A stretch of 38,734 nucleotides of DNA from the NCBI GenBank assembly GCA_937891825.1, contig CALAHN010000021.1:1-38734 (forward strand), given 5' to 3'. Source of the stretch: an uncultured Alphaproteobacteria bacterium. Lineage in GTDB: Bacteria; Pseudomonadota; Alphaproteobacteria; Bin95. Within the stretch, counting starts at the first letter, position 1; each line of letters begins with the position of its first letter. Shown piece by piece: positions 10,093 to 32,843 of this stretch. The translations under genes were made by a program, and so were the position numbers. A model generated the notes under the pieces. It did not search any database. It saw nothing but the letters and a program-made list of their open reading frames with translations, and had not been told where the DNA came from.

Positions 10093-10566
10093 ATGCTGGA
10101 ACCGGCTTTGCGCAAACGCCTCGACGACCTTCAGACCGACTATGCCCACGCCATCGACGACGACCGGCTGGAGGCCTGGCCAGGCTTCTTCCGGGAAGCG
10201 TGCGTCTACAAGATCGTCACGCGCGAGAACCATCAGGCTGGAATGCCGATGGGGATACTCTATTGCAACTCCCGCGGCATGTTGTCGGATCGGGTGCTGG
10301 CGCTCAGGACAGCGAATATCTACGAGCCGCACACCTATTGCCACATCCTCAGCCGCTCCCGCTACGAGGATGCCGGCGGCGGCTGCGTCGCCGGGCGAAC
10401 GAATTTTCAGGTGATCCGGACCATGGAGGACGGCGAGATGAGCTTGTTCGCCGCCGGGAAGTATCTCGACCGGATCGATATCTCGGGGCCGGAGCTGAAA
10501 TTCGCCGAACGCCTGATCGTCCTCGAATCCCGCCGCATCGACGTGCTGCTCGGCATTCCGCTTTGA
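10093..10566 (+). CDS. aromatic ring-hydroxylating dioxygenase, beta subunit
   Basis: A 157-residue small subunit with an NTF2-like cone fold, usual length for the family. Recognisable features are the N-terminal helix with DYAHAIDDDRLEAWPGFF, the VYKIVTREN strand, the segment around R.ANIYEPHTYCHILS, and the C-terminal KFAERLIVLESRRIDVLLGIPL, typical of benzoate/anthranilate-type beta subunits. It would form an alpha3beta3 hexamer with the preceding Rieske subunit and has a structural role. Its start is only 2 bases after the alpha stop, so translational coupling is expected. Confidence 0.93.
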   Translation: MLEPALRKRLDDLQTDYAHAIDDDRLEAWPGFFREACVYKIVTRENHQAGMPMGILYCNSRGMLSDRVLALRTANIYEPHTYCHILSRSRYEDAGGGCVAGRTNFQVIRTMEDGEMSLFAAGKYLDRIDISGPELKFAERLIVLESRRIDVLLGIPL

Positions 10567-10700
10567 TGGCGACGACGCCCGCCTGGGCGCGTCCAGGGCT
10601 GATCCAGATGGGCGACTTTGCCGTTTCTTCGGTGTTATGGCAAAAGGCAAGATTAAAACGGGCCCGAGGTCCCGCGTAATGTGGAGTTGCGGACGCTTCA

Positions 10701-12269
10701 ATGACCGAAGTCGATCCATCCGATGAACTGAAGCAGCTCCGCGCGCTGAACAGCTACATCAAGCGCACGGCCAACGAAGAGCTCCGGGAAGCGCAGCGCC
10801 TGCTCGCGACGGCAAAGCATATCGAACTGAAGAACGAGAAACTGGCGTCCGCGCTGACGGCGCTCCGTCGGGAGCACAATGCCCAGGCCAGGCAGTTTAC
10901 GGCCGTCCTGCAACAGCAGACCGATACCCAGGCCGCGTTGGCGGCCGCCCTTACCGAGAATTTCGGCGATCTCGCTGAACTGCAGTCGGCGGCGGCGGCG
11001 CTGAAGACCGCGAATCTTTCAAGGTGGGTCGAGGAAATCGGCCAGCTTCAGGCAAATATCCTCGGCAGAAACGATACGATCGCCAATTTGCGCGACCAGA
11101 TTGCGGGCTACCGTGAGCAATTGATAGCGTTCGCGCCGATGCGCCCCCTCATGCGCATCATGGAGTTCGGCAAGGCGATCGCCGACTCAATTCCGGATAC
11201 GGCCGACGGCCTGTACTTGCGCGGCATGCAACCCTTGGCGGCGCTGCCGCCGCTCGCCGGCCGGCCGCTGAAGCGGATCATCAACGATTGCATCGAAGCG
11301 CCGGACTTTGGCTGGCGTTCCGGCAAGATCGATTGGAACGATCAGAACCTCGACGCGATCAATCGCTATCTGTCATCCCTGCTCGCGGAAGTCGATTGCA
11401 TCTTCGCGATCAGCAAGGCGCTCGCCCAATCGCTTCAGGAGCGCTACACGGCGCCGATCGCCGTGTTGCCGAACTATCGAAATTTCGCCCCTCCGCCAGG
11501 ACCGAATGATTTCAGGGCCTCGCATGGCATACCGGACGACGCAATCGTCGTGTTGTCGGTCGGCATGCTCGCCTCGCCCGCATCCGTTGGCTTCGCCGCC
11601 GTTCTGGAAGCGCTCCGCCGGAACGGGCCGAACTGGCGACTTGTCTCCGTCGGCCGCATCGCCAGCAGCGAGTTGGAAGCCGAGATACTCGCGGCCGCCA
11701 AGTCCATGGACATGGCCGACCGCGTGCATCTCCTGCCGCCGGCGCCTTACCGCGAACTCGCAGCCTGCTGCGCCGCGTCCGACATCGGCGTCTACTGGAG
11801 CGATCCCGCCATCGGCAATATCAGCATCGCCCTGCCCAACCGGATCTTCGATTTCCTGGCTGGCGGCTTGCCATTCGTCTCGACCAGCATTCCCGATATC
11901 GCCGAAATAGTGACTGACCATAATTGCGGCCGGATCGTCGCGACCGCTACAGCGGACGCATGGTCCAAGGCCCTGCAGGCGATCCATGCCGACGCAGCGA
12001 CCTACCGGGCGGCCGCCGTGGCCGCGAACGCTGCCCTGACATGGTCGACACAGACCGAAACGATCCACAAGGCGTTTGCTCCCATCGACCATGCCGCATT
12101 TGTCGGCGTCAACGATCTGAGCTTGAACAATCGCGCCATCCGGATCGCCCTCGCGCTCCTGCAGCATGGCAAGCGCGTCACCTTCATGGGCAGCACGCTG
12201 AAACATGCCCAATGGCTACAGAAGGAGGGCATCGGCTGCGCTCAAATCAACGCCAAACCTTTGGCTTGA
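10701..12269 (+). CDS. coiled-coil GT-B glycosyltransferase with unusual domain order
   Basis: A 522-residue protein. Residues ~5-145 are a heptad-rich coiled coil (ELREAQRLL, KNEKLASALTALRREH, LRDQIAGYREQL). Residues ~150-255 look like the second half of a GT-B N-terminal domain: GLYLRGMQPLAALPPL, IINDCIEAPDF, then VDCIFAISKALAQSL. Residues ~260-455 look like a GT4-type C-terminal domain: VLPNYRNF, VVLSVGML, VHLLPPAPYRELAACCAASDIGV, and LPNRIFDFLAGGLPFVST at the donor site. The last ~50 residues (VNDLSLNNRAIRIALALLQHGKRVTFMG) resemble the first beta-alpha-beta of a GT-B N-terminal domain, which is missing at the front. It is either a circular permutation or a truncated tandem enzyme. It would transfer a sugar in envelope or capsule synthesis. 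A weak GGAG lies 14 bases upstream. Confidence 0.75.
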   Translation: MTEVDPSDELKQLRALNSYIKRTANEELREAQRLLATAKHIELKNEKLASALTALRREHNAQARQFTAVLQQQTDTQAALAAALTENFGDLAELQSAAAALKTANLSRWVEEIGQLQANILGRNDTIANLRDQIAGYREQLIAFAPMRPLMRIMEFGKAIADSIPDTADGLYLRGMQPLAALPPLAGRPLKRIINDCIEAPDFGWRSGKIDWNDQNLDAINRYLSSLLAEVDCIFAISKALAQSLQERYTAPIAVLPNYRNFAPPPGPNDFRASHGIPDDAIVVLSVGMLASPASVGFAAVLEALRRNGPNWRLVSVGRIASSELEAEILAAAKSMDMADRVHLLPPAPYRELAACCAASDIGVYWSDPAIGNISIALPNRIFDFLAGGLPFVSTSIPDIAEIVTDHNCGRIVATATADAWSKALQAIHADAATYRAAAVAANAALTWSTQTETIHKAFAPIDHAAFVGVNDLSLNNRAIRIALALLQHGKRVTFMGSTLKHAQWLQKEGIGCAQINAKPLA

Positions 12270-12284
12270 ACGCCGGCGCAGCCC

Positions 12285-13274
12285 TCACGCGATATCCGCC
12301 GGGTTGACCTCAAAGGCCAGCGGGGCGCCTTTGACGAACCGCTGGATGTTGTCGAGGAAGAGCGCGTCCCAGCGCGCGCGGCCGCCGTCGCCGCCGAACG
12401 ATGTATGCGGCGTCAGGCGGACCTGGGGATGCGACCAGAGCGGGTTGTCCTTCGGCAGCGGCTCCTCATGGAAGACATCGAGCACCGCGGTCGCCAATTG
12501 CCCCCGGTCGAGCGCCTTCAGCAACTCCGCGTCGTCGATCAACGCGCCGCGCGCGATATTGACCAGCACGGCGCCCGGCTTGATCGCCTCGAAGAACGCC
12601 TTGCCCGCGAAGCCGCGCGTCGCCTCGGTCAAGGAGCAGGCGAGGACGATCACGTCCGCGTCGGGCAGGAACCGCGGCAGATCGGCCATGGTCCCGGCCC
12701 GGTCGACAATGGCCGAGGTCGCGGGCGACCGGCGAACGACATCGATCGTCGTGCCGAACGCCTTCGCCCGCGTCGCCAGCGCCTCGCCGATCGGCCCGAA
12801 ACCGATGATGAGCCAGTTCATCCGGGAGAGTTCGCGGAAAGGCGTCAGCTTCCATTCACGGGCTGCCTGCTGCTTGCGCTGCAGGTCGATCGGATGCACG
12901 ACGCTCATCACCTGCGCCATCACATACTCGGCGATGGCCACGCCCTGGGCGCTGCTGTTACAGATCCGGATGCCCTTCTCCGACGCTTGCTTGTATACCG
13001 GGTTGTCGAGGCCGGCGTTAAAGGTCTGAACCACCTTGACCGACTTCAGGGCGAGCACAAGCTCAAAGGCTTTCCGGATCGCGCCGCCAGCGTTCAGGTG
13101 GTTCGACAGCCAGAGATAATCGACCGCGACTTCGCTCGGCGGAACCGCCTTGCCGCCAATCTGGAACTGTCCCTCCCGGTCGAACTGCAATACCTCGATA
13201 TCCAGGCCAAGCGCGTCCAGCCGGTCTTTGATATGGGCATAGGATTGATCGTACATCGCGACGGTCGCGGTCAT
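12285..13274 (-). CDS. D-isomer-specific 2-hydroxyacid dehydrogenase
   Basis: A 329-residue NAD(P)-dependent 2-hydroxyacid dehydrogenase. The inserted Rossmann domain has GFGPIG, lacking the usual second glycine spacing but typical of the GxGxxG variant. The catalytic triad residues are visible: Arg in NIARGALIDD, Glu in VFHEEPLP, and His in LTPHTSFGG. The R.SP motif after the second strand (VVRRSP) suggests NADP(H) preference. It would interconvert a 2-keto acid and a D-2-hydroxyacid; phosphoglycerate, glyoxylate/hydroxypyruvate and other substrates cannot be told apart. The ATG at 13274 (MTATVAMYD) was chosen because upstream sequence is Arg/Ala-rich and lacks protein-like features. It lies 134 bases downstream of the PhyH gene on the same strand and is convergent with the glycosyltransferase. 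Confidence 0.9.
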   Translation of the reverse strand: MTATVAMYDQSYAHIKDRLDALGLDIEVLQFDREGQFQIGGKAVPPSEVAVDYLWLSNHLNAGGAIRKAFELVLALKSVKVVQTFNAGLDNPVYKQASEKGIRICNSSAQGVAIAEYVMAQVMSVVHPIDLQRKQQAAREWKLTPFRELSRMNWLIIGFGPIGEALATRAKAFGTTIDVVRRSPATSAIVDRAGTMADLPRFLPDADVIVLACSLTEATRGFAGKAFFEAIKPGAVLVNIARGALIDDAELLKALDRGQLATAVLDVFHEEPLPKDNPLWSHPQVRLTPHTSFGGDGGRARWDALFLDNIQRFVKGAPLAFEVNPADIA

Positions 13275-13408
13275 GGCTGGCTTCCCCCAAGGATTGCATT
13301 CGCTTGCCGAGCTAAAAGGCGGACGCGCGAACGCCGCCACCGCCGCCGCCTCAAGATTTCGCGGCGCGGAAACCGCTTCGGCCGGACACGCCCTGAACGC
13401 CGCCGCCT

Positions 13409-14224
13409 TCAGCGCGCGATGCCGGTCGCCGCCATATAGAGATCGTAGGCCTTTGCATGAGCAGCGACGGCGGCCGGGCTTTCGGATGTTTTGAGGCGTG
13501 TTTCCGGGTGGAAATGGCCAAAGCGGTCCTCGCCTCGCACCAGCAGCGCGCTTGAGCGCGGCTCGCGTGTCGGTCTGACATGAGCCGGAATGTAGCTGAC
13601 GCCGACGCCGATCCGCCGGTCGCCGGCTCGGTTCGGGCCGGAGCAATGGGGCGTGTGGGTATGGTGCAGCGACATCGCGCCCGCGGGCACAGGGACCAGC
13701 ACGCCGTCATCGTCCCGGAAGCGCCCGTGGATGCCCTTGCCGAGTCGGATCAGATGATTGGGCTGCGGGTCTTCGATATGCGGCAGCAAACCTTCCCGAT
13801 AGACGCCGGGCGCCATGCGCATGCAGCCCGCAGCTTCGCTCGCGTCCGACAGCGCCACCCATGCCGTCACATGCTCCGCCGGCGCCAGGTGGAAATAGTC
13901 GTCGTCCTGATGCCAGACAATCAGGCCGTCGCTCGCCGGCTCCTTGATATGCATCGTCAGATGGTAGACCAGGATATCCGGACCGATGAGGTCCTCGACC
14001 GCGTCCAGCACGGCCGGGTGATGCACGATCGCGTCCGCCCAATCGAACAGGAGATAGGATTTCGATTTCTGCGGGAACGCCAGTTTCGCGCCGCTGCGCG
14101 CTTCATAGGATTCCAGGCTGGCGCGATATCGGGCGACTTCCGCATCCGACAGAACCGGCACGGGGCCGATGAAACCGTCGCGGCGATAGCGGTCAATCTC
14201 CAGTTGATCCAGGCGTTTAGGCAT
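13409..14224 (-). CDS. phytanoyl-CoA dioxygenase (PhyH) family protein
   Basis: A 271-residue Fe(II)/2-oxoglutarate-dependent dioxygenase of the PhyH family. The iron facial triad is visible as WHQDDDYF (His and Asp, HxD) and a later His in HHTHTPHCSGPN. It is followed by the Arg of GDRRIGVGVSYIP that binds 2-oxoglutarate. The N-terminus has the usual Y.RDGFIGP. Bacterial PhyH proteins hydroxylate diverse substrates (acyl-CoA, ectoine, phosphonates, natural products), so a specific reaction is not claimed. GGAGCG lies just upstream of the ATG. The dehydrogenase downstream could act on the 2-hydroxy product, a reasonable but unproven pairing. It diverges from the pirin gene. Confidence 0.92.
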   Translation of the reverse strand: MPKRLDQLEIDRYRRDGFIGPVPVLSDAEVARYRASLESYEARSGAKLAFPQKSKSYLLFDWADAIVHHPAVLDAVEDLIGPDILVYHLTMHIKEPASDGLIVWHQDDDYFHLAPAEHVTAWVALSDASEAAGCMRMAPGVYREGLLPHIEDPQPNHLIRLGKGIHGRFRDDDGVLVPVPAGAMSLHHTHTPHCSGPNRAGDRRIGVGVSYIPAHVRPTREPRSSALLVRGEDRFGHFHPETRLKTSESPAAVAAHAKAYDLYMAATGIAR

Positions 14225-28586: not shown

Positions 28587-31500
28587 ATGGCCGGAGAAAC
28601 GCCAGTTACGATCGATGGCGCCCTGAATGACTGGGACATCAACGATCGCCTCGACCTGGCCGGCGGCGGCGTCGCCGGGTTCGAGATGTATGGCCGCGTC
28701 GAAGGCGGCGCGTTTGTCCTGGCGGCCAACGCCGGCGCGACTGCGATCGGGCCAAACACGACCTTCTGGCTGAACACCGACAACGACGCTGCGACCGGCT
28801 TCCAGGTCTTCGGCTTCGCGGCGGGGGCTGAATTCAATGTCAATATCGGCGCCGACGGCGTTCCTCGCCTCTATACCGGCGACGCGGGCGAGACCCTGGT
28901 TTCAGATGCATTGGAAGTCGGCCGCTCGGCCGACGGCGGCATCCTCGAAATCCGCATCCCGGCGGCGCTCCTGGCCGCGCCCGGCGGCGAGATCCCGACC
29001 GCGGCGACGGTCTATGCGGACATCAACAACCAGACGTTCATTCCGAACGACTACTCCAGCTTCGCCTACAAGCTGGAAGCGCCGACGCCGGCGGAGACCG
29101 TCGCTGACATCATTTTCGACGGCGAGCTTGGCGAATGGAGCACAGCCGACCGGTTGGACGGCGCCGCGGACGGCGTCGAAGGATTTGCAGTTTACGGCCG
29201 CGAGACCGCCGACCATTTCGTCATAGCGCTTGAAGCCGACACGGCGATCGGCGCCAACACGACGCTTTGGCTGAACACCGACAACAACAACGCGACGGGT
29301 TTCCAGGTCTTCGGCTTCGCCGCGGGCGCGGAATACAACATCAATATCGGCGCGGACGGCGTTCCCCGCCTCTTCACGGGCGCCGCCGGCGAAACGCCGG
29401 TCCAGGCGGACCTGACCTACGGCTTCAACGCGACGCGGCAGCGGATGGAAATCGCCATCGCCAAGACCGATCTCGCCGGCGCGCCAGACAGTCTCCGCCT
29501 GCATGTCGACGTGAACGACCAGGCCTATATCCCGAACGACTATTCCAGCTTCTCCTATGAGATCGCGCCCGAAACCGCGCCGCCGCCGCCGCCCACGACC
29601 GATGTCATCGACGGGACGACGCTGAACGGCGACCTTTCGGACTGGGCGGCCGCGGATCGTCTGGACGGCGCCGCCGACGGCGTCGCGGGCTTTGCCGTGC
29701 ACGGCCGCGCGAGCGCCGATCATTTCCTGTTCGCGATCGAAGCGGATGTCGAGATCGGGGCCAACACGACCATCTGGATCAATACCGACAACAACAACGC
29801 GACCGGCTTCCAGGTCTTCGGCTTCGCGGCCGGCGCGGAATACAACATCAACATCGGTCAGGACGGCGCGCCGCAATTGTTCACCGGCGCCGCCGGCCAG
29901 ACCGCGGTCAATGCGCCGGTCGCGTTCGGCTACAGCGCCGACGGCAAGACACTGGAGCTCGCCATCGCCAAGGCCGACCTCGCCGGCGCGCCCGACAGCG
30001 TGGAAATCCATGTCGACGTGAACGAGCAGGCCTATATCCCGAACGATTACAGCCAGTTCTCCTACCGGGTCGGCGACCTGGTGCTGCCGCCCGCGCCGCC
30101 GCCAGTCACGGACGCGACGGCGGACAAGCGGATCGCCATCGTCTATTCCGAGAGCAGCGCCGCGAACTACTTCAACGAAACGTCCTATGCGCAGCTCATC
30201 ATGAGCGCGCAGCACCAGGCGATGATGGCCGGCACGCCCTTCGACCTCCTGAACGAAGCCGACCTGACGAACGCCGACCTACTTGCAACCTACGACGCGA
30301 TCGTGTTCCCGAGCTTCGCCAACGTCCGGGCCGATCTTCGCGACGCCATCTCGAGCGCGCTGGAAACGGCGTCGAACGAACACGGCGTCGGCATGATCGC
30401 GGCCGGCAATCTCATGACCAATGATGAAAATGGCGCCGCCTTCGGGAGCGATCCCTACAGCGTCATGAAGTCCCTGCTCGGCGTCGACTTCAAGGGCTTC
30501 GGCCAGGCGACCGATGCGGTCATCCGGGCCGGCGCCGACCATGCCGGGAATGAAACCCTCGCCGAAGGCGCTACGGTTCAATCCTATGACGGCGACTTCT
30601 TCTACATGCACTTCGAGCCGGTCGTTAGCGCCGACACGGTCGCGACGCTGACCGCGGGCGGCGAAACCTACAATGCCGTGCTGGCGACCAATACCGGCGG
30701 GCTGAACGTGCATTTCGCCAACGAATCGGTCTTCGCCGACACCGACCTTGCCTGGCAGGCCATCGACTGGGCCGTCGAGCGGGGCGAAATCAGCATCGAT
30801 CTGAAACTGACCCGCAGCGACCTCATCGTCGCGTCGCGCAATGACATGGATCAGTCCCAGGAGATGTTTGAAGTCAACCCGGACGATGGCCGTCCGCCGA
30901 TCTATCAGACCCTGGTATCGCTCCTTGAAGAATGGAAGGCTGACTATAATTTCGTCGGGTCCTACTACATCAATGTCGGCGACAACCCGCCAGACCAGCA
31001 GACGGATTGGGCCGTCTCCGGCCCTTATTATCAACAGATCATGGCGCTCGGGAATGAAATCGGCACCCATTCCTTCACCCACCCCGAAGACACCAACACC
31101 CTGACGCCAGCTCAGATCCAGTTCGAGTTCGAGCAGTCGATGGCGGTGATCGAAGCGGAGCTCGGCATCGACATCACGGGCGCTGCGGTGCCCGGCGCGC
31201 CCGAGAGCCTGCAGACCGCGCAGCAGATCATCCAGTATTTCGACTATCTATCCGGCGGCTATTCCGGCGTCGGCGCCGGCTATCCGGGCGCGTTCGGCTT
31301 CCTCGGGCCCGACCAGACCGACAAGGTCTATCTGGCGCCGAATATTTCCTTCGACTTTACCCTGGTCGAGTTCCAGGACATGACGCCGGAGGAAGCCTCG
31401 GCCGCCTGGCAGGCCGAGTTCGACGATTTGACCGCCAACAGTTCGACCCCCATCGCCCTCTGGCCCTGGCACGACTACGGCCCGACCGAGCACGATGACG

Positions 31501-32843
31501 ATCCCGATGAGAACCCAGGCTCCTTCTATTCGGAGGAGATGTTCACGAACTTCATCCAGACCGCCTTCAACGCCGGCGCGGAATTCGTGACGCTGAACGA
31601 CCTTGCCGGCCGCATCAAGAGCTTCCAGTCCTCAAGCGTCACGGTCGACAAGGACGGGAACGAAATCACCGCGACCGTGACAGGCGAGGGCGTGGGCGCC
31701 ATGGCGCTCGATCTGGACCTGAACGGCGGCGAGGGCGTCATCCAGAGCGTCGCCGGCTGGTATGCCTATGACGCAGACTCCGTCTTCCTGCCCGATGCTG
31801 GCGGAACCTTCCAGATCACGGTCGGCGCGACCCAGGACGATGTCACGCACATCACGGGCCTCGACCAACGCATGACGCTGACATCCGTCACGGGCGACGG
31901 CGAAGACCTGACCATCGGCGTGGTCGGCGAGGGCGATATCGCCATCGATCTGACGGCGCTCAACGGGCGGTCCTTCGCTGTCTCCGGCGCTGACGTCAAA
32001 AGCATCGTCGGCGACATCCTCACGCTCACGACAAAGGGCGCCGGCGCGCACGCCATCGGCGTCGACGTCGGCGGCGACAGCAACTTCGCGCCGGTCGCCG
32101 ATGATGACGCGACCACCCTCAAGGCGAATGCGCCGACGAGCAACCTGACGTCGATCCTGCTGGATGGCGACGCTGACGCCAACGGAGATGCGCTGTCGAT
32201 CGTCTCGCTGGACGGGACCGGCGTGCAGGGCGTCCTCAGCCTGACGAATGGTCAGGTCGCCTACAATCCGGGCAATGCCTTTGCGACGCTGCAAACCGGC
32301 CAGACCGCTCAGGAGCAGTTCTCCTACACGATCAGCGACGGCAAGGGCGGAACCGCGACCGCGACGGCTACGCTCACCATCGAAGGCGTCGCGCCGGCCT
32401 ACAACCTGATCCAGGGCGGCAGCGGCAAGGACAAGCTGACCGGCACGAACGGCGCCGATCTCATCCTCGGCGGCGACGGCGACGATACCCTGAACGGCAG
32501 GTCGGGCGGAGACCGTCTGGAAGGCGGCGCCGGCAACGACAAGCTGACCGGCGGCGGCGGCGCGGACGTCCTGATCGGCGGCGCCGGCAACGATACGCTG
32601 AAAGGCGGCGGCGGCGCCGATCTCTTCACGTTCGACGCCTTCGGCTTTGGGGTCGACCGCATCACCGACTTCACGAACGGGACGGACAAGATCGATCTTT
32701 CCGGGCTTGGCCTCTCCGGCATCGACCACCTCTCGATCTCCCAGTCGTTCCTGACGACAGTGATCAACTTCGGCAATGGCGATCAAGTCCAGTTGAGCGG
32801 CATGCTGTCCATCTTCATCGGCGCCGACGACTTCATCTTCTAA
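28587..32843 (+). CDS. giant RTX exoprotein: three beta-sandwich repeats plus polysaccharide-deacetylase-like domain
   Basis: 1418 residues with no N-terminal signal. Layout: three tandem ~168-residue repeats (1-167, 168-336, 337-505), each with DWxxxDRLD, WLNTDNNNATGFQVFGF and YIPNDYSSF, resembling CBM9/DOMON-type carbohydrate-binding sandwiches, joined by Pro-rich linkers. A Rossmann/GATase-like region follows (~513-735, RIAIVYSESS, YDAIVFPSF). Next is a NodB-like deacetylase region (~740-1020) with the metal motif HSFTH (His828, His832), Asp753/Asp755 in NDMD and WPWHDYG. Beta-rich segments and a cadherin-like repeat (~1168-1270) precede eight RTX nonapeptides (1277-1345, such as GAGNDTLKG) and a C-terminal type I secretion-like end (ADDFIF). 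The order recalls Agd3-like (CE18) polysaccharide deacetylases. Likely secreted by a type I system, not present here, and active on an extracellular polysaccharide; this is inferred. Confidence 0.85.
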   Translation: MAGETPVTIDGALNDWDINDRLDLAGGGVAGFEMYGRVEGGAFVLAANAGATAIGPNTTFWLNTDNDAATGFQVFGFAAGAEFNVNIGADGVPRLYTGDAGETLVSDALEVGRSADGGILEIRIPAALLAAPGGEIPTAATVYADINNQTFIPNDYSSFAYKLEAPTPAETVADIIFDGELGEWSTADRLDGAADGVEGFAVYGRETADHFVIALEADTAIGANTTLWLNTDNNNATGFQVFGFAAGAEYNINIGADGVPRLFTGAAGETPVQADLTYGFNATRQRMEIAIAKTDLAGAPDSLRLHVDVNDQAYIPNDYSSFSYEIAPETAPPPPPTTDVIDGTTLNGDLSDWAAADRLDGAADGVAGFAVHGRASADHFLFAIEADVEIGANTTIWINTDNNNATGFQVFGFAAGAEYNINIGQDGAPQLFTGAAGQTAVNAPVAFGYSADGKTLELAIAKADLAGAPDSVEIHVDVNEQAYIPNDYSQFSYRVGDLVLPPAPPPVTDATADKRIAIVYSESSAANYFNETSYAQLIMSAQHQAMMAGTPFDLLNEADLTNADLLATYDAIVFPSFANVRADLRDAISSALETASNEHGVGMIAAGNLMTNDENGAAFGSDPYSVMKSLLGVDFKGFGQATDAVIRAGADHAGNETLAEGATVQSYDGDFFYMHFEPVVSADTVATLTAGGETYNAVLATNTGGLNVHFANESVFADTDLAWQAIDWAVERGEISIDLKLTRSDLIVASRNDMDQSQEMFEVNPDDGRPPIYQTLVSLLEEWKADYNFVGSYYINVGDNPPDQQTDWAVSGPYYQQIMALGNEIGTHSFTHPEDTNTLTPAQIQFEFEQSMAVIEAELGIDITGAAVPGAPESLQTAQQIIQYFDYLSGGYSGVGAGYPGAFGFLGPDQTDKVYLAPNISFDFTLVEFQDMTPEEASAAWQAEFDDLTANSSTPIALWPWHDYGPTEHDDDPDENPGSFYSEEMFTNFIQTAFNAGAEFVTLNDLAGRIKSFQSSSVTVDKDGNEITATVTGEGVGAMALDLDLNGGEGVIQSVAGWYAYDADSVFLPDAGGTFQITVGATQDDVTHITGLDQRMTLTSVTGDGEDLTIGVVGEGDIAIDLTALNGRSFAVSGADVKSIVGDILTLTTKGAGAHAIGVDVGGDSNFAPVADDDATTLKANAPTSNLTSILLDGDADANGDALSIVSLDGTGVQGVLSLTNGQVAYNPGNAFATLQTGQTAQEQFSYTISDGKGGTATATATLTIEGVAPAYNLIQGGSGKDKLTGTNGADLILGGDGDDTLNGRSGGDRLEGGAGNDKLTGGGGADVLIGGAGNDTLKGGGGADLFTFDAFGFGVDRITDFTNGTDKIDLSGLGLSGIDHLSISQSFLTTVINFGNGDQVQLSGMLSIFIGADDFIF
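28599..30080 (+). repeat. three tandem ~500-bp coding repeats in the exoprotein
   Basis: The stretch TTCCAGGTCTTCGGCTTCGC recurs at 28800, 29301 and 29808, giving periods of 501 and 507 bases (167 and 169 codons). The core from the NTD motif to the GRPxLFTG-like turn is nearly identical at protein level. Copies 2 and 3 are closest, and copy 1 is more diverged (NDAA for NNNA, EFNVN for EYNIN). This suggests internal duplication, with scope for copy-number change by recombination. Confidence 0.85.

Follow-up and report, generated by a model that had tools for sequence, protein, structure and literature searches.

A probable circularly permuted GT-B glycosyltransferase with an N-terminal coiled coil in an uncultured alphaproteobacterium

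The window, the whole stretch of 38,734 nucleotides analysed here, carries on its plus strand (10701..12269) a gene that, with a probability of about 0.88, encodes a GT4-like GT-B glycosyltransferase with a circularly permuted domain and a coiled coil at its new N-terminus. The rearranged order is a stable inherited design and no broken gene.

The ORF is intact and comprises 522 aa; its layout was derived from the translation, Pfam and AF2. Residues 6-144 (10716..11132, +) form a coiled coil, as indicated by AF2 helices at 6-84 and 91-144 and by a hydrophobic periodicity that peaks at 3.57 residues and was equalled in strength by 0 of 2000 shuffles. AF2 and structural alignment place alpha3, beta4 and the remaining GT-B N-domain at residues 147-256 (11139..11468, +), the model from residue 148 onwards aligning to residue ~60 onwards of canonical GT4 chains. 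The GT-B C-domain with its LPNR-x-F-[DE] motif follows at residues 257-447 (11469..12041, +; PF13692/PF00534 and structural alignment), and AF2 adds a last helix, residues 448-458, with a 5-residue linker behind it (12042..12074, +). Judged by its position, this helix is presumably the C-terminal one that in GT-B folds usually packs against the N-domain. Residues 464-515 (12090..12245, +) correspond to a transplanted N-domain unit, beta1-alpha1-beta2-alpha2-beta3, according to AF2 strands, homology and a deletion test, and harbour a conserved N-x-R-x-x-R ... G motif (N476, R478, R481, G490). A short tail and the stop complete the translation (12246..12269, +).

PF13692 matched residues 283-431 (E 3e-12, 47.4 bits versus a cut-off of 27) and PF00534 likewise matched the C-domain (42.1 bits versus 26.4), that is, a C-terminal nucleotide-binding Rossmann domain is present. 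The N-domain model PF13439 matched at positions 122-164 of 170 only and stayed below its cut-off (15.3 bits versus 28.5): an N-domain in the usual order was not found, and what remains of it is split and swapped. NCBIfam returned weak, partial GT4 matches only, and an Rfam scan of the window gave no match. These data agree with the initial annotation, which had described a ~140-residue N-terminal coiled coil and a GT-B fold entered midway through its N-domain and continued by a complete C-domain; the entry lies at helix 3/strand 4. Its statement that the next gene follows within 15 bases also held. The neighbour, a 2-hydroxyacid dehydrogenase gene (12285-13646, minus strand), starts 15 bases past the stop and is convergent, so nothing of the glycosyltransferase continues downstream. 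GC3 is uniform at 0.76-0.80 in each of the three protein parts, and the C-terminus is therefore coding.

AF2 was run with four homologues (five-row alignment) and yielded a model with a mean pLDDT of 75.6 and a pTM of 0.62. Behind the two coil helices, helix 147-163 and strand 170-174 lead into the rest of the N-domain, the full C-domain and the last helix. The C-terminal piece comprises strand 464-469, helix 477-488, strand 492-497, helix 503-508 and strand 512-515, a beta-alpha-beta-alpha-beta unit with a pLDDT of 84-91 in its core. Residues 148-464 of the model aligned to ~60-380 of WaaG, PimB', PimA, BshA and HepE (Z 20-24 over ~290 residues), and the two-domain GT-B fold was recovered against many GT4 structures. 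All glycosyltransferases listed in this PDB comparison are unpermuted. The ~60 front residues of the solved GT4s named above match the C-terminal piece of the window protein in size and secondary structure.

When residues 461-522 were removed and AF2 was rerun with the same rows cut alike, the pLDDT of residues 161-200 fell from 87, 82, 82 and 82 to 55, 45, 64 and 59 (N-domain from about 83 to 56). Strand beta4 (170-174) was lost and helix 3 merged with the coil; the C-domain was unaffected, blocks 221-450 keeping their confidence. The sheet of a GT-B N-domain has the order 3-2-1-4-5-6-7, in which beta4 adjoins beta1. Loss of beta4 upon deletion is therefore expected if residues 464-469 are beta1. 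In silico, formation of the N-domain needs the moved piece, and from the deletion result we deduce that the strands of the model would pair as beta2-beta1-beta4. In a coiled-coil oligomer, the piece could instead complete the N-domain of an adjacent subunit. The length of the coiled coil hints at oligomers, and a monomer prediction cannot separate pairing within a chain from pairing between chains. However, the last helix and beta1 are only about five residues apart, and the domain is already formed, with good confidence, in the monomer model. We consider such a swap quite improbable.

By sequence, the segment 464-515 is the piece absent from the front. A leave-one-out profile of the other permuted proteins matched residues 466-504 of the window protein with an E value of 6.5e-6, and the next best of the 329 window ORFs reached only 6.9. 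Among 2000 shuffles of the C-terminus the best scored 5.8 bits, versus 27.5 bits for the real one. A second profile, built from ten unpermuted relatives only, aligned to the permuted proteins as two pieces in swapped order, with its positions ~80-418 falling on their front and its positions ~4-60 on their C-terminus (E 2.5e-9 to 1e-4 in A-type proteins, weak in B-type proteins). The window protein is B-type and divergent, and its C-terminus alone reached only E 4.1 against this profile, so that the argument for this protein depends on the family. In the reverse direction, a profile of permuted C-termini found the N-termini of unpermuted GT4s (E 2e-14, 8e-12 and 6e-11). An alignment of eight proteins, which share 18-30% identity with the window protein, revealed N476, R478, R481, L486 and G490 as invariant, and the R-x-x-R ... 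G pattern occurs also at the N-terminus of unpermuted relatives. That is, both pieces are homologous to an unpermuted relative in swapped order.

The C-terminal segment had initially been annotated as the first beta-alpha-beta of an N-domain. The leave-one-out match bears out this identity, but not the length: the transplanted piece exceeds the 25 residues named and runs to about residue 515, alpha2 and beta3 included. A Rossmann-like tail that is unrelated or due to chance and lies outside the fold would fit the weak similarity of the window protein, taken alone, to the unpermuted profile. It fits neither the leave-one-out match, which no shuffle came near, nor the dependence of the N-domain confidence on the segment, and is in our view extremely improbable.

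The permuted order was present in ten complete proteins from seven genomes (the window counted), so independent genomes share one order and a conserved moved piece. Besides the window gene, we found three permuted genes in the alphaproteobacterium G054 (L033:7954-9525, L033:6464-7897 and L032:2925-4322), one complete gene in a Sneathiellales MAG (L051:301-1842), two in a Gammaproteobacteria MAG (L052:5740-7092 and L052:9607-10983), and one each in a Flavobacteriaceae MAG (L054:329-1630), the isolate Jannaschia sp. Os4 (L055:5518-6894) and genome G913 (L102:1231-2805, on a 4.37-Mb contig). The Flavobacteriaceae label is provisional, since MAG contigs may be misbinned. Two fronts from the same Sneathiellales MAG as L051 (L056 and L057) are cut by contig ends. 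Permuted proteins scored E 1e-111 or better in profile searches and matched to near the model end; unpermuted relatives scored E 1e-73 or worse, and their matches extended no further than position ~410 of 464. The family is rare, with one or two members per draw of ~300-400 genomes, the centre genome included. Single-protein scans of genome contigs and plasmids with the window protein detected no family member, nor did the family profile among viral contigs or an L054 query among phages; 14 genomes of the window organism's own order held no member besides the window gene. Plasmid matches from Ruegeria and Massilia were unpermuted and were rejected as family members. Beside the permuted gene of G913, L142:9725-11320 (-) encodes another coiled coil plus glycosyltransferase protein. 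Its C-terminus (AEVAIVDSSLRWHGNRIKRQLDAIVRANRPALYLGR) resembles a very divergent first beta-alpha-beta that lies beyond the reach of the profile.

In the G054/Sneathiellales orthologue pair, identity reaches 84% in the moved piece, against 75% in the rest of the N-domain and 70% in the C-domain; the values for coil, linker and tail are 43%, 42% and 10%. About two-thirds of the comparable four-fold sites differ in the same pair. At the level of coding sequence, this comparison shows strong purifying selection on the moved piece.

The initial annotation had left the choice between a true circular permutation and a second GT domain lost by deletion. In the latter case, only the first beta-alpha-beta would be left of the second GT, and the front of the first GT would be gone. 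Such a remnant would yield the identical order, and duplication with trimming is the usual origin of a permutation. However, no two-GT homologue was recognised among the profile and homology matches examined, the order is common to proteins at 20-35% identity, which speaks against a recent truncation, and conservation is highest in the moved piece. We therefore regard a tandem remnant as very unlikely. A true permutation is favoured by the order shared in seven genomes, the swapped two-piece alignment, the purifying selection and the dependence of the AF2 N-domain on the piece.

The permuted domain also appears as a unit within genomes. Two G054 genes, ~22.7 kb apart, share 1140 bp with 100% identity (L032:2946-4085 and L033:6680-7819), and both flanks of the block, coil and tail, differ between them. 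The block amounts to 380 codons and corresponds to residues 148-513 of the window protein, almost exactly the stretch from alpha3 to beta3. In Sneathiellales MAG.259, the two fronts (L056:6091-6453 and L057:6010-6372) are 98.9% identical over 363 bp to the contig ends and share the front boundary of the G054 block; the G054 and Sneathiellales species differ by ~20% in protein. Judged from these assemblies, the blocks show that it is the permuted domain which is copied, as one unit, and they suggest recent copying or gene conversion of the domain as a cassette. An assembly error over a repeat is the weaker explanation of the 1140-bp identity, given that the flanks differ. One of the two Sneathiellales fronts sits directly behind a sulfotransferase-like gene and is devoid of a coil.

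In our best tree (43 sequences, with nine permuted rows as the identical G054 copy was counted once), the permuted proteins formed one side of a branch with a support of 80/82. This branch lies inside a group with the unpermuted L053, L004, L034 and L063 (support 100/98), and the window protein sits on a long branch (1.85). The first trees, with fewer rows, had kept A-type and B-type proteins apart, which hinted at two separate origins, although one clade was not rejected (p-AU 0.196). Against two origins, the single clade emerged once L102 and more unpermuted rows had been added. That the permutation arose once is the simpler reading of these trees, and we hold it with moderate confidence. 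The unpermuted near relative L063 (L063 / L075, Gammaproteobacteria MAG) lies in one cluster with the two permuted L052 genes.

Sugar transfer by the window protein is putative and should not be taken for granted. By alignment, the GT4 EX7E positions read I376/D384, that is, the motif was not found, and the basic residues that normally follow the first C-domain strand are missing. The nearest unpermuted relatives also lack the first Glu of EX7E, and this change is therefore a subfamily trait and no mark of function loss here; the basic residues are likewise absent from the unpermuted L004 and L063. The gene clusters of several members point to surface polysaccharides or glycans: that of G054 encodes a polysaccharide export protein, sulfotransferases and a capsule-synthesis protein, a second one a flippase, a GT2 and a methyltransferase, and a third one nucleotide-sugar epimerases, a DegT aminotransferase and a Gfo/Idh oxidoreductase. 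Downstream of the permuted gene in the Flavobacteriaceae MAG, L054:1913-3208 (+) encodes a methyltransferase-like protein whose long tail resembles a coiled coil and which may be a partner of the coil.

The neighbourhood of the window gene itself fails to reveal a function. The gene is an orphan between catabolic genes, preceded by a HIBADH-Rieske-small subunit block and followed by the convergent dehydrogenase gene. Sister species retain the HIBADH/Rieske/small-subunit stretch adjoining the site without a glycosyltransferase gene, and around 10560-12284 they also lack the dehydrogenase/PhyH pair behind it. These absences mark a point of gene gain or loss. Since its GC3 is like that of its neighbours and its branch is long, the window gene was probably acquired, either long ago or with rapid evolution since. 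Elsewhere in the window, 28587-32843 (+) encodes a protein of 1418 aa with a polysaccharide-deacetylase-like domain, bacterial Ig/cadherin-like domains and C-terminal RTX repeats.

A protein that is permuted and folded but catalytically dead in the window species, a scaffold or an inherited relic, would be consistent with the orphan position, the long branch and the replaced EX7E-type residues. Yet the ORF is intact with normal GC3 to its end, the invariant family residues are retained, and the unpermuted relatives are changed at the same positions. A non-catalytic role of the window gene is possible, and we consider loss of catalysis somewhat unlikely.

For the permuted glycosyltransferase, we propose that a break between beta3 and alpha3 of the N-domain opened the ancestral fold, that the first ~55 residues (beta1 to beta3) were relocated behind the C-terminal crossover helix via a 5-residue linker, and that the coiled coil was joined onto the new N-terminus at alpha3. 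The likely route would be a tandem duplication or fusion whose ends were both trimmed; a duplication-plus-trimming intermediate may thus have led to the permutation. Such a route would be easy because the GT-B C-terminal helix returns to the N-domain and places the termini side by side. Since the chain end would already lie against the N-domain, a linker of only five residues would do. The folded product would be an ordinary two-Rossmann GT-B built from two pieces of one chain, and would transfer sugar onto a growing surface glycan. The coil would extend alpha3 of the acceptor domain and probably oligomerises the enzyme or tethers it to a partner. With somewhat better than even confidence, we further suggest that these proteins are the first known natural family of circularly permuted GT-B enzymes, of one origin, in which the coil on alpha3 of the acceptor-binding domain couples the enzyme to partners and the permuted domain is exchanged between genes as a cassette.

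The relatives of the window protein are GT4 GT-B enzymes with an LPN[KR]-x-F-E motif, among them the unpermuted L034, L004, L063 and L053 and the solved HepE (4xso), PimB' (3oka), WaaG (2iv7) and BshA. They share with it the C-domain, the N-domain from alpha3 to beta7 and the crossover helix, whereas the window protein has beta1 to beta3 at the C-terminus and a coiled coil before alpha3. The nearest parallel is the relation of GH70 to GH13, in which a different fold is opened ahead of alpha3. GH70 glucansucrases, carbohydrate-active enzymes as well, are circularly permuted GH13 barrels with the same topological opening (N-alpha3-beta4 ... beta1-alpha1-beta2-alpha2-beta3-C; PMC11046441), but they are transglycosylases with an unrelated TIM-barrel fold. 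The Kdo transferases GT99/GT107/GT140 (WbbB, KpsC, KrkA) are likewise rearranged GT-B enzymes of surface-glycan synthesis (PMC9587256, PMC12887879), and WbbB also has a helical spacer adjoining its GT. Their descriptions set them apart: the N-domains are reduced and displaced, with inserted helices, and the word permutation is absent from both papers. No sequence relation to them came up in this analysis. The permuted GTPases YqeH, RsgA/CpgA and cpRAS are stable families with a natural permutation of a nucleotide-binding alpha/beta fold, but differ in their P-loop fold and function. Our search of the open-licence literature brought up no GT-B enzyme with a natural circular permutation.

The GT-B enzymes make up one of the largest enzyme groups, and annotation always assumes that the acceptor domain comes first. 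The permutation explains why Pfam scores such proteins as C-domain-only fragments. A stable permuted lineage means that the GT-B fold tolerates opening at beta3/alpha3, and it provides a natural template for grafting partners on alpha3 of the acceptor domain. The L052 genes and L063 form a natural pair for direct comparison; with a natural permutant and an unpermuted relative at hand, the folding order and domain closure of GT-B enzymes become testable.
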